A stretch of 64,000 nucleotides of DNA from contig NZ_CP039373.1 in the NCBI RefSeq assembly GCF_000179235.2, positions 496,032 through 560,031 on the forward strand, read 5' to 3'. Made by a program: the position numbers and the translations under genes. How positions within the stretch are numbered: the stretch's first letter is position 1; the number at the start of each line of letters is the position of its first letter. Shown here in pieces: positions 44,605 to 55,686 of the stretch. Under the pieces are notes generated by a model, which saw nothing but the letters and a program-made list of their open reading frames with translations, ran no database searches and was not told the origin of the DNA. Source of the stretch: Synechococcus sp. CB0101. GTDB taxonomy: Bacteria > Cyanobacteriota > Cyanobacteriia > PCC-6307 > Cyanobiaceae.

Positions 44605-45039
44605 ATGGCTCAGCCCACCCACTCCACGATCAGCACCGCCCCTGAGGCCTTTGCTGCCGTGGCCTTAGCCGCCGTGGCCTGTGATGGCGAGCTCGCCAGT
44701 CTCGAGGCCCGCAGCCTGCGGCAACAACTTGAATTTCGCCATCCCTACCGCGACTGGAGCGACGCGGCGATGGGCGATTTGCTCGATCGCCTCCTGCAGC
44801 TCTTGCGTGAGGACGGCTGGCCGGAACTGGTGCGCCAGGCAGCGCCTTTGTTAGAAGGCCCGGCCGCTGAAACAGCACTGGCCGTGGCGGCGGCGCTCAC
44901 CCAAGCTGATCACGTGGAATCCAGCGAGGAGCACAGCTTTCTGGCGAGCCTGAGCCAGGCCTTGGCCCTCGATCCAGCCCGAGCCGCCCAGATTGTGGAG
45001 GTGGTGGCGGTACTGAACCGCGACAGCCTGGCGAGCTGA
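44605..45039 (+). CDS. TerB-like protein
   Basis: A 144-residue all-helical protein. The pattern AAVALAAVACDGELASLEAR and ALTQADHVESSEEHSFLASL, with acidic positions after short hydrophobic helices, is that of TerB-like domains, which bind metal or act in membrane-associated complexes. A link with tellurite resistance is not implied. Start at ATG 44605; an ATG two codons earlier is equally open. It lies directly before psb32 on the same strand. Confidence 0.65.
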   Translation: MAQPTHSTISTAPEAFAAVALAAVACDGELASLEARSLRQQLEFRHPYRDWSDAAMGDLLDRLLQLLREDGWPELVRQAAPLLEGPAAETALAVAAALTQADHVESSEEHSFLASLSQALALDPARAAQIVEVVAVLNRDSLAS

Positions 45040-51834: not shown

Positions 51835-52123
51835 TCAGGCCAACAGCAACTCATCCAGCATGAGATCAGTGCGGCGCAGTAGCGCGAACAGCGTGCCAGC
51901 GTTCCCCCTGCAGATCCGCAGGTCCGCATCAAGCACTGTGATGTCGAGCCAGGCCGGGAACGATTGGCTCACACTGCGGAGCCATTGCAGCCGCCGTTGG
52001 GCCAAGGACGGCCCTAACCAACCACCACGCTGAAAGCGCACTTCAACGCGCTGATGAGGGGTGGCCTCTGCCGTGGGTGTGACGCTGATCGCGGCTTCCA
52101 CCGCAATGCCTGCCAAAGACGTG
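51835..52123 (-). pseudogene. PAP/fibrillin gene, C-terminal part cut off by IS21 element
   Basis: This minus-strand frame encodes the end of a plastid-lipid-associated (fibrillin) family protein: VEVRFQRGGWLGPSLAQRRL, FPAWLDITVLDADLRICRGN and GTLFALLRR. LDADLRICRGNAGTLFALL is a typical fibrillin closing motif. The 5' part lies on the far side of the mobile element at 54576-54868. With the element and one copy of GACGTG removed, the reading runs ...AGPFTS-LAGIAVEAAIS... in frame. The gene is therefore recently interrupted. Fibrillins stabilise thylakoid lipids and plastoglobule-like structures. Confidence 0.85.
52118..52123. repeat. Left copy of 6-bp target site duplication
   Basis: GACGTG directly precedes the element and recurs at 54576-54581. 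Confidence 0.85.
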
Positions 52124-52135
52124 TGTCAGGCGACA
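52124..52135. repeat. Left terminal inverted repeat of the IS
   Basis: TGTCAGGCGACA; the right end gives TGTCAAGCGACA on the other strand. Confidence 0.8.
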
Positions 52136-52234
52136 GCAAAAACTGGTCCGGCGGCGACACGAAAACTGGTCCACCCTGTGGAGCGAGCCAGGCCTGACGA
52201 CACGGTGAGCGCAGGGGCGTCATCTCTGGAGCCG

Positions 52235-53547
52235 ATGGCTGCGGAGATGCCGGTGCAGACCCCTCAGGATGTGGAGGCGATGCAGCGGCTTTCGGCAGCA
52301 GGCTGGGGCCGTAGACGGATTGCCCGGGAACTGGGCTGTTCGCCGGAGACGGTGCGCAAGTACCTACGGCAGGGTGGCTGGCAGCCCTATGGCAAGCCCT
52401 GCCGCACCTCGGTTCTCGATGGTCAACGGGAGTGGCTGCGGCAGCGATTTCTGGCCCACCGCGGCAATGCCGACGTGCTGCGGCAGGAGTTGGCCAGTGA
52501 GAAGGGAATCAAGGTGAGCCTGCGCACGGTGGAGCGTGCGGTTGAGCCATGGCGGCGTGAGCTGCGCAACGCAGCTGTGGCGACGGTGCGGTTTGAGACG
52601 CCACCGGGCCGGCAGCTGCAGGCGGACTTTGGCCAGTGCGTGGTGCGTATTGGCGGCGAGCGGGTGCGGGTGCACCTGGCGGTGCTCACCTTGGGATACT
52701 CCAGGCGACTGTTGGTGCGGGCGTTCCGCAGCGAGAAGCAGGACCACTGGCTCTCAACCCTGGAGGAGGGGTTCCGGCACTGGGGCGGTGTGCCTCAGGA
52801 GGTGCTCGTGGATAACGCTCGCGCCCTGGTGAGTCAGCACGATCCGGAACGACAGATCCTGGTGTTTGCCAGCGGCTTGAGCAGTTCGCCAGCTACTGGG
52901 GGTTCAAGCCCCGCGCCTGCCGGCCGTACCGGGCCAGGACGAAAGGCAAAGACGAACGTGGGGTGGCGTACGTCAAACGCAACGCCATGGCCGGGCGGGA
53001 GTTCAGCAGCTGGGCGGAGCTGGAGGCCCATCTGGTGCGCTGGACCCGTGAGGTCGCTGACCTGAGGGTGCATGGCACCACGGGTGAGGCGCCGCTGGAG
53101 CGGTTTATGCGCGCAGAAGCCCAGGCCTTGCAGCCGCTGGAGGCCAAGCCGTCCTTCTTGGCAGAGCGGGAGCTGGTGCGCGTTGTGCACAGCGACTGCT
53201 GCGTGGAAGTGGAAGCGAACTGGTATTCGGCGCCGCAGGCGCTGATCCGCCAGCGGGTGAGCGTGCTGGTGCGCGATCAACAGGTTCTGATCCGCCATGG
53301 CGGCAGGATCGTGGCTGAGCACAGGCGTCAGCGGCCTGGTAGCCGTAGCCGCCAGGTGATCGACGGCCATTGGGATGGCCTGGTGCCGCAACGGCAGCGG
53401 CGCGAGGCGGTGCGTTCGCTGCGGGACACCAGCGAGCGTTGTGATCAAGAACAGGAGCAAGAGCAGGAGCGGCGCATGGTTCGCAGCTCTGAACTGGCCC
53501 GGCCTCTGGCCGTCTATGCCGAGCTGATCGGTGAGGTAGCGGCATGA
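52235..53547 (+). pseudogene. istA: IstA transposase, frameshifted
   Basis: The N-terminal part (ATG 52235) has a helix-turn-helix (RRIARELGCSPETVRKYLRQ) and the integrase core start (GRQLQADFGQCVVRIGGERV, VPQEVLVDNARALVSQHDP). After 52870 the frame breaks: the first frame reads ASGLSSSPATGG, while the correct continuation LEQFASYWGFKPRACRPYRA is found one base back, and VAYVKRNAMAGREFSSWAEL to the end is in that frame. A single base is missing at about 52875 (GGCTTGAGCAG). IS21 transposases are not known to need frameshifting here, so this copy is probably inactive. The stop overlaps istB ATG. Confidence 0.85.
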
Positions 53548-54407
53548 GCACCAACCCGCGCAACCGATCCACACCCATCACGCCACCGGTGCCGACCGAG
53601 GAGCTGGAGGCGATGCTTACCCGCCTGCGGCTACCGGCCATCCGCGATCGCCTCGATGCGCTCCTGGAGGAGGCGGCAAGGCGGGAGATGAACCTGCGTG
53701 AGGCGCTGACCTGGCTCTGCACAGCTGAGGTGGCTCGCAAGGACCAGCTGCGGATGGAAATGGCGCTGCGGCTGGCGCGCTTTCCGTATGTGCGGACGCT
53801 GGAGGCATTTGATTTCGAGGCTCAGCCGTCGATCGATCCGGCCCAAATCCGCGAGCTGGCCACCTGCCGTTGGGTGGCCAACGGCGACACCTTGCTACTG
53901 CTCGGACCGCCGGGTGTGGGTAAGACCCACTTGGCCGTGGCACTGGGCCGGGAGGCGGTGCGGCTCGGTCACAGCGTCCAGTACGTCGGTGCGATGGAGC
54001 TGATCACAGCCCTGGCCAAAGCCCAGGCGCAGCACGCCCTGGAAGCAAGGCTGACGCAGTACGCCAAAACCCGGCTGCTGATCATCGATGAGCTCGGCTA
54101 CCTGCCGCTTGAGCCGAACGCGGCCTATCTGTTCTTCCAGCTGATCTCCCGCTGCTACCAGCGCGGCAGCGTGTTGATCACCTCCAACCGCCCCGTCATG
54201 GAGTGGGGCGAGGTGTTTGGTGATCAGGTGGTTGCCACGGCAATCCTCGATCGGCTGCTGCACCACAGCCACGTGCTGACGATCCGGGGCGACAGCTACC
54301 GGCTCAAAGGGAAACGTCGCAGCGGTCTCATCCGCCCGCAGGCGGGCGGTTCCTCCTCACAGGACAGCGCTGGCCTACAGCCACCGCCGCCCAGTGAGGA
54401 GGCCTGA
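53544..54407 (+). CDS. istB: IstB-like ATP-binding protein of the IS
   Basis: Helper ATPase that aids IstA in IS21 target choice, related to DnaC/IstB AAA+ proteins. The 287 residues include an N-terminal IstB helical segment (LRLPAIRDRLDALLEEAARR), Walker A LLGPPGVGKTHLAVALG near residue 115, Walker B RLLIIDELGYLPL near residue 175, SVLITSNRPVMEWGEVFG, and ILDRLLHHSHVLTIRGDSYR. Unlike istA it is intact. Its ATG overlaps the istA stop (ATGA). Confidence 0.95.
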   Translation: MSTNPRNRSTPITPPVPTEELEAMLTRLRLPAIRDRLDALLEEAARREMNLREALTWLCTAEVARKDQLRMEMALRLARFPYVRTLEAFDFEAQPSIDPAQIRELATCRWVANGDTLLLLGPPGVGKTHLAVALGREAVRLGHSVQYVGAMELITALAKAQAQHALEARLTQYAKTRLLIIDELGYLPLEPNAAYLFFQLISRCYQRGSVLITSNRPVMEWGEVFGDQVVATAILDRLLHHSHVLTIRGDSYRLKGKRRSGLIRPQAGGSSSQDSAGLQPPPPSEEA

Positions 54408-54868: not shown

Positions 54869-55021
54869 GGCTCTGAAGTCTGTGCAGACCAGCCCATCCT
54901 GACCAGATCAACGGCCTGGTGAGAGATCTATCAGAGAGTCCAACGATCCCTGTGACGATCCAGTGACCGAAGACTCCTCTTCCCCAGGTCAACTGGAGAG
55001 TTGGCTTAGGGTTCGCAGCGG

Positions 55022-55282
55022 GTGAGCCATGTGATGTTGCCAATCTCTCAAGCAAGAGGGCTGCACAAGCTCTTGTCTTTGATGGCCATCGGCTCATGCC
55101 TTGGCTCAACAGGCGCGGCCCGTGCCGAAACAGGCGTACCTGCCCTGTACGCCACCAAAGCAGACGCAGAAGCAGCCGCCAAAAAGCACTTCAATTGCAC
55201 CGGAGCGCACCAGATGGGCAAGCAATGGATGCCCTGCTCCACCCATGGTGATGCCAACAGCCATACCCAGCAGAAGCCCTGA
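55022..55282 (+). CDS. Secreted DUF3721 protein
   Basis: An 86-residue exported protein. A leader (LHKLLSLMAIGSCLGSTGAA) is followed by one DUF3721 unit: ALYATKADAEAAAKKHFNCT, GAHQMGKQWMPC with the conserved paired Cys. Start may be ATG 55031 or later; GTG/ATG alternatives change only the leader. It is followed 8 bp later by another DUF3721 gene. The family is found in marine cyanobacteria and has no assigned role. Confidence 0.75.
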   Translation: MSHVMLPISQARGLHKLLSLMAIGSCLGSTGAARAETGVPALYATKADAEAAAKKHFNCTGAHQMGKQWMPCSTHGDANSHTQQKP

Positions 55283-55290
55283 GAAAAACG

Positions 55291-55686
55291 ATGAGCAGCT
55301 GTGGTGATCCGCCCAAACTGATTGCCGTTGGCATCGCCCCGCTGGGAATCATTTCGATCGGCGTGGTGCCGATGGGTGTGGTGAGCATTGGTGTCGTGCC
55401 GATGGGGGTATTCAGCCTGGGCGTTATGGGGATGGGTGTGGTGAACGCCTGCGTGGTGGGCATGGGTGTGGTCGTGGCAGGCCTCAATGCCATGGGGATC
55501 TGGTCGATCAGCCCAGGAAACGGGCATCAACACCACCGCAGTGCGGCTGTTCAAGAGCAGCTGATGGCCTATCCCAGTAAGGAGGTGGCGCTTGAGAAGG
55601 CACGCACCCTTGGCTGCGAGGGTGTGCATGCGATGGGTGATCTGTGGATGCCCTGCGCAGAGCATCCATCGGCCCATCAGCACTGA
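55291..55686 (+). CDS. Decapeptide-repeat membrane-like segment with DUF3721 domain
   Basis: A 131-residue protein. Residues 8-72 repeat every ten residues with the pattern hydrophobic-S-I-G-V-V-P-M-G-V (IISIGVVPMG, VVSIGVVPMG, VFSLGVMGMG, VVNACVVGMG, VVAGLNAMGI), a periodic Gly-rich hydrophobic region. A short His-rich linker (GNGHQHHRS) leads to a DUF3721 unit (AYPSKEVALEKARTLGCEGV, HAMGDLWMPC). It has no obvious signal peptide. The repeats could form a glycine-zipper membrane bundle or a beta-solenoid. It follows its DUF3721 neighbour by 8 bp, so both are probably one operon. Confidence 0.75.
   Translation: MSSCGDPPKLIAVGIAPLGIISIGVVPMGVVSIGVVPMGVFSLGVMGMGVVNACVVGMGVVVAGLNAMGIWSISPGNGHQHHRSAAVQEQLMAYPSKEVALEKARTLGCEGVHAMGDLWMPCAEHPSAHQH

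Follow-up and report, generated by a model that had tools for sequence, protein, structure and literature searches.

A conserved Met/His ladder in a hydrophobic repeat fused to DUF3721 suggests a probable metal-handling membrane protein in picocyanobacteria

The question raised by this locus is what a small protein that joins a very hydrophobic ten-residue repeat to DUF3721, a domain family without described function, does in the cell. The window analyzed here is a stretch of 64,000 nucleotides from Synechococcus sp. CB0101 (contig NZ_CP039373.1), whose genome (G000), a single contig of 2.79 Mb, has Vulcanococcus, Cyanobium and Synechococcus records as its closest named relatives; Prochlorococcus is among the named relatives of the gene itself. 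A literature search under DUF3721, PF12518, PF01744 and IPR022196 found no paper, and GLTT, the Pfam name of the repeat, led to GltT transporters and other uses of these letters, the phrase 'GLTT repeat' being absent among the matches listed. An earlier note on this DNA had described a repeat, a His-rich linker and a DUF3721 domain within the gene at 55291-55686, next to a DUF3721 gene with a signal peptide, and the open reading frames and Pfam calls agree with this description (Table 1). That note does not mention the Met/His ladder, the metal genes nearby or the DUF3721-free standalone relatives reported below.

Table 1. Coordinates of the gene pair, its domains, the upstream element and the ladder positions within the window
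Feature	Coordinates	Strand	Description
Promoter/operator-like element	54992..55009	+	ACTGGAGAGTTGnnnTAG; 18 bp, exact at second pair too
Partner gene	55022..55282	+	86 aa; DUF3721 protein that looks exported, its start resembling a signal peptide
DUF3721 of partner	55148..55246	+	residues 43-75, CTGAHQMGKQWMPC core, Pfam PF12518 E 2e-15
Fusion gene	55291..55686	+	131 aa, ATG start; repeat domain, His-rich linker and DUF3721
Repeat domain	55318..55500	+	residues 10-70, twelve five-residue units
Ladder position 18	55342..55344	+	Leu here; L/R in f1 rows, outside mostly His (11) or Thr (8)
Ladder Met 28	55372..55374	+	A2: 30 M, 11 H of 41
Ladder Met 38	55402..55404	+	A2: 31 M, 10 H of 41
Ladder Met 48	55432..55434	+	A2: 41 M of 41
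Ladder Met 58	55462..55464	+	A2: 40 M, 1 C of 41
Ladder Met 68	55492..55494	+	A2: 40 M of 40 filled rows; one gap
His-rich linker HQHH	55525..55536	+	residues 79-82; by sequence
DUF3721 of fusion	55570..55668	+	residues 94-126, Pfam E 6e-15

Both genes of the pair carry DUF3721 (PF12518) as the family defines it, well above the curated cut-off (55.1 and 56.7 bits versus 27). The fusion protein starts with a short lead containing CGDPPK, which is followed by a repeat of ~60 residues. We aligned 41 fusion proteins out of 103 extracted (alignment A1); because the CGxxPK stretch ahead of the repeat is conserved in them, a later start codon that would drop the repeat, a possibility raised in the earlier note, is unlikely. 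Homologues lacking the repeat, the other possibility raised there, were not seen among the aligned fusions: all 41 carry it, and its length is constant except for a single five-residue contraction (L094), with some extension after the repeat in marine Synechococcus. The partner gene begins with GTG at 55022, an in-frame ATG at 55034 being possible as well, and is separated from the downstream fusion gene by 8 bp; its product carries the domain and looks exported, as had been claimed. Just left of the pair, an IS21-type IstA/IstB-like transposase ORF pair (52061-54407) was recognized by eye, and such an insertion may be what parted the window copy from its original neighbour.

Conservation is highest in the repeat, with a mean identity among the 41 fusions of 75%, compared to 58% for DUF3721 and 31% for the linker. 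Residues 10-71 contain no charged residue and have a GRAVY value of 1.92; they form six ten-residue units, the upper of the two numbers given before, each composed of two five-residue units. Identities at lag 10 amount to 28 (shuffle mean 7.0) and at lag 5 to 21 (shuffle mean 7.7), values reached in none of 20,000 shuffles. Where the earlier note had described 30-bp repeats in the DNA, only a 15-bp period is seen, over part of the repeat (55355-55406, 70% matches). Elsewhere in the window, at 44646-44680, there is another short tandem repeat with a 15-bp unit in 2.3 copies. At a lag of 30 nucleotides, 83% of second codon positions and 38% of third positions are identical, and because the periodicity sits at the second position and hardly at the third, the repeat appears to be maintained as protein. 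Between the window gene and the second copy in the same genome, codons 1-76 show 34 synonymous and 6 non-synonymous codon changes. The codon-position pattern and the synonymous excess rule out a recent tandem expansion of the DNA, and these comparisons indicate that the repeat is old, of near-fixed length and under purifying selection.

Within the repeat, positions 28, 38, 48, 58 and 68, spaced ten residues apart, are occupied by Met or His in all filled cells but one of a second alignment (A2), which has 41 rows, 20 from the window family f1 and 21 from outside f1 (Table 1). At positions 28 and 38, Met is replaced by His alone; an exchange of Met for His and nothing else is unusual and is the behaviour of soft-metal ligands. 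The interleaved positions 13, 23, 33, 43, 53 and 63 hold aliphatic, aromatic or small residues, with no Met or His among the residues listed for A2 (up to six kinds per group). A regular-expression count over all loci, which mixes registers ten residues apart, gives three interleaved Met cells, and the alignment count is therefore used here. The conserved residues able to serve as ligands thus comprise the Met and His of the ladder together with Cys, His and Met of DUF3721, for which the invariant columns in A1 are C109, G111, H113, M115, G116, W119, M120 and C122.

What fold carries this ladder was approached by comparison and prediction. Gly-zipper membrane helices (GxxxG), one of the two structures suggested by the earlier note, are rejected for the repeat, because its glycines are five residues apart, with nine pairs at spacing 5 and none at spacing 4. 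The other suggestion, a beta-turn repeat, agrees with an AlphaFold model based on A1, in which strands recur every ten residues of the repeat and PLG/PMG occupies the turns, but the confidence is low (pLDDT about 50, against about 80 for DUF3721, predicted as a helix plus hairpin). A model of the repeat alone based on A2 reached a pLDDT of 61 with a less regular pattern. Pentapeptide repeat proteins, which form a right-handed beta-helix, resemble the window protein in their five-residue units and, as far as the models go, in the suggested beta structure; the window repeat differs in being uncharged throughout and has no Pfam pentapeptide match (E up to 1). The test for such a quadrilateral right-handed beta-helix used the same two low-confidence models (overall pLDDT 53 and 61), and fold searches with them gave nothing at E≤0.001; among PDB chains there is no sequence relative (two chance-level rows above E 0.6). 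The Pfam GLTT repeat (PF01744) matches residues 14-40 in three stretches with an E-value of 8e-15 and 54.5 bits versus a cut-off of 21, so that the window protein shares the five-residue glycine repeat of that family, but not its LTT consensus, which is described for nematode proteins. Because the units read VPMGV / VSIGV rather than xGLTT, in the order V-P-M-G-V / V-S-I-G-V with a ten-residue super-period, we did not file the protein as a true GLTT member. The knotted solenoids of PMC13123833 were also considered and set aside; cyanobacteria, membrane and metal are absent from the available part of that paper.

The homologue search for the fusion proposed in the earlier note yielded, in addition to the aligned fusions, DUF3721 in 36 of 292 cyanobacterial genomes, all of which belong to f1 and represent every f1 genome sampled. 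The GLTT model matched 69 of the 292, namely all 36 f1 genomes and 33 outside, of which 28 were kept after G213, G016, G036, G044 and G074, judged by eye to have other repeats, were removed. With an A2 profile searched against 386 genomes, 101 matched at E≤0.001, and the gene is close to ubiquitous among picocyanobacteria of oceans and lakes (56 of the 58 sampled f1 genomes); 34 genomes outside f1 match with E below 1e-20. The relatives outside f1 are standalone proteins, and in nearly all of those read a His- or His/Met-rich tail replaces DUF3721. In some f1 genomes there are also repeat-only proteins of 65-85 aa with neither DUF3721 nor a His tail (L123:1450-1644, L134:1420-1674, L193:4921-5175), and in G114 an in-frame TGA splits the fusion gene (L123:914-1357), which a repeat-only gene follows directly. 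A phage or plasmid origin is rejected, as the window protein had no match in phages and no PHROG, a standalone relative had none in plasmids, and viral contigs contained no relatives of repeat or partner.

The two genes of the window belong together, as had been proposed. Among the 16 freshwater/Synechococcus loci L006-L021, neighbour clustering placed a DUF3721 gene upstream in 14, and the window genome itself has five DUF3721 genes, comprising the window pair, a second pair at ~2.261 Mb (L145:8668-9882) and a single gene at ~2.117 Mb. The second pair has a divergent MerR gene and the same upstream element as the window pair. This element was noticed by eye in an alignment of the regions upstream of pair starts. 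With up to two mismatches allowed, it occurs once in the window (0.04 expected by chance on average) and five times in its own genome, of which the two occurrences at the pairs are exact; exact copies also precede the pairs in L006, L007 and L013. Ahead of 13 pair starts, neither consensus -35/-10 hexamers nor perfect seven-base inverted repeats were found. Thirteen loci (L006-L018) share a MerR-like cluster, and the MerR beside the second pair scores best with the NCBIfam models CadR-PbrR, CueR and ZntR, in each case below the cut-off. We infer that MerR may bind the element at 54992-55009, and because the element is exact at both pairs and at L006, L007 and L013, the distant MerR may control the window pair in trans. 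Of the envelope complex suggested earlier, a place in the envelope or a membrane is the part that stands as plausible, given the 62 uncharged residues and the exported-looking partner. Beside DUF3721 pairs at two other loci we noted porin-like proteins with a His/Met-rich start (L150:16442-17596 and L199:5065-6264, the latter without a Pfam match).

To quantify the association with metal genes, 14 query proteins were fixed from discovery loci, and matches no more than 5.5 kb from the repeat gene were counted. At held-out loci, 12 of 20 had a metal gene within this distance versus 4 of 40 random stretches drawn at fixed positions from genomes of both groups (one-sided Fisher p 8e-5, with loci within genera not independent). 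The four control matches are weak (23-40% identity), as is the match at held-out L217 (ZnuB, 31%), and omitting the latter gives 11/20 and p 3e-4. The window's own copy shows no such neighbour, with none of the 14 metal queries matching anywhere in the 64 kb. Outside f1, the held-out loci gave 3/7 versus 2/20 controls (p 0.09) and all loci 10/35 versus 2/20 (p 0.10), with 25 of the 35 lacking a nearby metal gene; the general metal link therefore leans mainly on f1. The set-aside loci L188-L192 are part of a 4/12 count and were left out of the 35. At L145-L159, 11 of 15 loci had a metal gene, including L146 and L154, which lack the repeat gene. L220-L239, which are mostly Prochlorococcus-type loci without metal genes, gave 7/20 and are not called held-out, because they were chosen after the Fur search.

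The copper link rests on the identity of the recurring genes. Outside f1, where neighbours were checked by Pfam/NCBIfam, the repeat gene lies near DUF1775 (YcnI), CopC-CopD and a PetJ-like cytochrome c6 (118 bits, below the cut-off of 135) at L160, beside DUF411 and a multicopper oxidase at L182/L183, near a heavy-metal P-type ATPase at L187 and near a CusA/CzcA RND gene, above its curated cut-off, at L162; CopC-CopD with DUF1775 was found again at held-out L202, of the same genus as L160. In the 28 outside genomes, the sole CopC gene is located ~1 kb from the repeat gene, and 2 of 10 DUF411 matches fall within 1.5 kb of it, 3 of 97 HMA matches within 3.5 kb and 2 of 25 Penicillinase_R matches within 1 kb. 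Taken together, 8 of 133 matches to these four families, which were chosen after the neighbours had been seen, are within 5 kb, where 0.33 are expected, in five genomes and four genera. CopC, CusF and Ctr1 are Met/His-rich copper proteins, and the window protein is like them in its Met/His ligand sets and copper-gene neighbourhoods; it differs in the regular ladder of its hydrophobic repeat, and PDB chains reveal no sequence relation to these and other such proteins.

Because Met or His recurs every ten residues and metal genes are frequent neighbours, we consider the product a probable metal-handling membrane protein, and a role in metal homeostasis of some kind is likely. The more specific reading that we favour, although tentatively, is that of a membrane-inserted, probably beta-structured metal-binding envelope protein whose metal is most likely Cu(I); copper is not proved, since the neighbours indicate several metals (Cu, Zn, Fe/Fur). 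The uncharged repeat domain would be a compact, probably beta-structured element embedded in the membrane, with one Met/His per ten residues aligning as a ladder of soft-metal ligands, likeliest for Cu(I). The C-terminal DUF3721, with its Cys, His, Met, Met and Cys, and the separately exported DUF3721 partner would provide metal-binding arms outside the membrane. At the membrane, repeat protein and arms would jointly bind metal, buffer it or pass it on, and their genes would respond to metal through MerR, Fur/Zur-type or PetR/PetP-type regulators according to lineage. Picocyanobacteria are abundant, photosynthetic and copper-sensitive organisms with very small genomes, in which the placement of copper at plastocyanin and oxidases is not settled. 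If true, the reading would give a working role to DUF3721 and to the GLTT-like cyanobacterial repeat, and it is directly testable, because the ladder is a defined set of replaceable Met/His residues.

An alternative that we regard as unlikely assigns the protein to regulation rather than buffering, as a copper-sensing accessory that presents or withholds copper to a PetP-type protease or another membrane sensor. It draws on four genomes from two families, in which the repeat gene is directly upstream, on the same strand, of a PetR-like (Penicillinase_R, BlaI-type) repressor gene and then an M56-like metalloprotease gene (L170, L185 and held-out L201 and L204); at L185 an HMA protein lies on the opposite side of the repeat gene. 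In Synechocystis, PetP is reported to be a membrane protease that depends on copper and acts on PetR, the BlaI-type repressor in control of petE and petJ (PMC7896320 and PMC12292863). The pairs found here are PetR/PetP-like by type, candidate orthologues at most, and the repeat protein is neither component. The Penicillinase_R gene is present in 24 of the 28 outside genomes but beside the repeat gene in only 2, and nothing comparable was seen in f1.

It is similarly doubtful that the protein is a structural component of the envelope or thylakoid membrane without a metal role, with metal neighbours that are partly due to chance. The Met of the ladder could reflect a mere turn preference, being favoured at the tight PMG turn, and the strong hydrophobicity and conserved length of the repeat fit such a function, as do the 25 outside loci lacking a nearby metal gene. 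Most Prochlorococcus loci likewise have no metal gene near, and in high-light Prochlorococcus the gene occupies a stable non-metal locus between hisS-like and unrelated genes. However, a turn preference does not account for the restriction of positions 28 and 38 to Met and His, nor do the His/Met-rich tails of the standalone relatives, the excess of metal neighbours at held-out loci and the fused DUF3721 with its invariant Cys, His and Met sit well with a purely structural protein.

Still less likely is that the picocyanobacterial protein serves zinc, or a mixture of Zn and Fe, and that copper applies to the standalone relatives only. The f1 neighbours overall are MerR, ZnuABC/Zur or Fur (for Zur in Synechococcus WH8102, see PMC9337993). 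A Fur-family gene is directly adjacent to the repeat gene in 14 of the 36 f1 genomes, convergent in those drawn out and, in marine Synechococcus, outside any common operon with the repeat gene. An ABC-3 (ZnuB) gene and a second Fur-family gene are found within ~4.5 kb in 4 of the 36 (G137, G114, G181, G239), and a ZnuA domain is among the neighbours at L199. Against zinc, Met is a poor zinc ligand, and DUF3721 genes away from the repeat adjoin other families: DUF411 at the single genes of L285, L290, L293 and L294 (L294 by tblastn only), DUF305 at those of L289 and L293, MerR at L289, L293 and L146 (L289 and L146 by tblastn only) and multicopper oxidase at L289 and L154 (tblastn only). Least probable of all is that the repeat forms a hydrophobic beta-solenoid in the inner or thylakoid membrane and that its Met/His ladder, with a rung every ten residues, relays Cu(I) into or across that membrane to DUF3721 acceptors, and we know of no description of a metal conduit of this linear Met/His relay type.

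Cys, His, Met and Cys are retained in the core of the DUF3721 genes away from the repeat, but MG and the last His are missing. Of 22 single-DUF3721 loci, L282, L284, L286, L287, L291, L292, L295, L297 and L299 have no metal-query match. A small membrane protein is often encoded directly downstream of the single genes in f1; that of L290 has no Pfam match. At L290, L294, L285 and L293, DUF3721, the small membrane protein and DUF411 are close together, and this group is likely a copper cluster with members lacking an assigned function. In G189, a DUF3721 gene (L280:6397-6684) adjoins an ABC-3 metal permease gene, an arrangement shared, by coordinates, with G139, G221 and G225.
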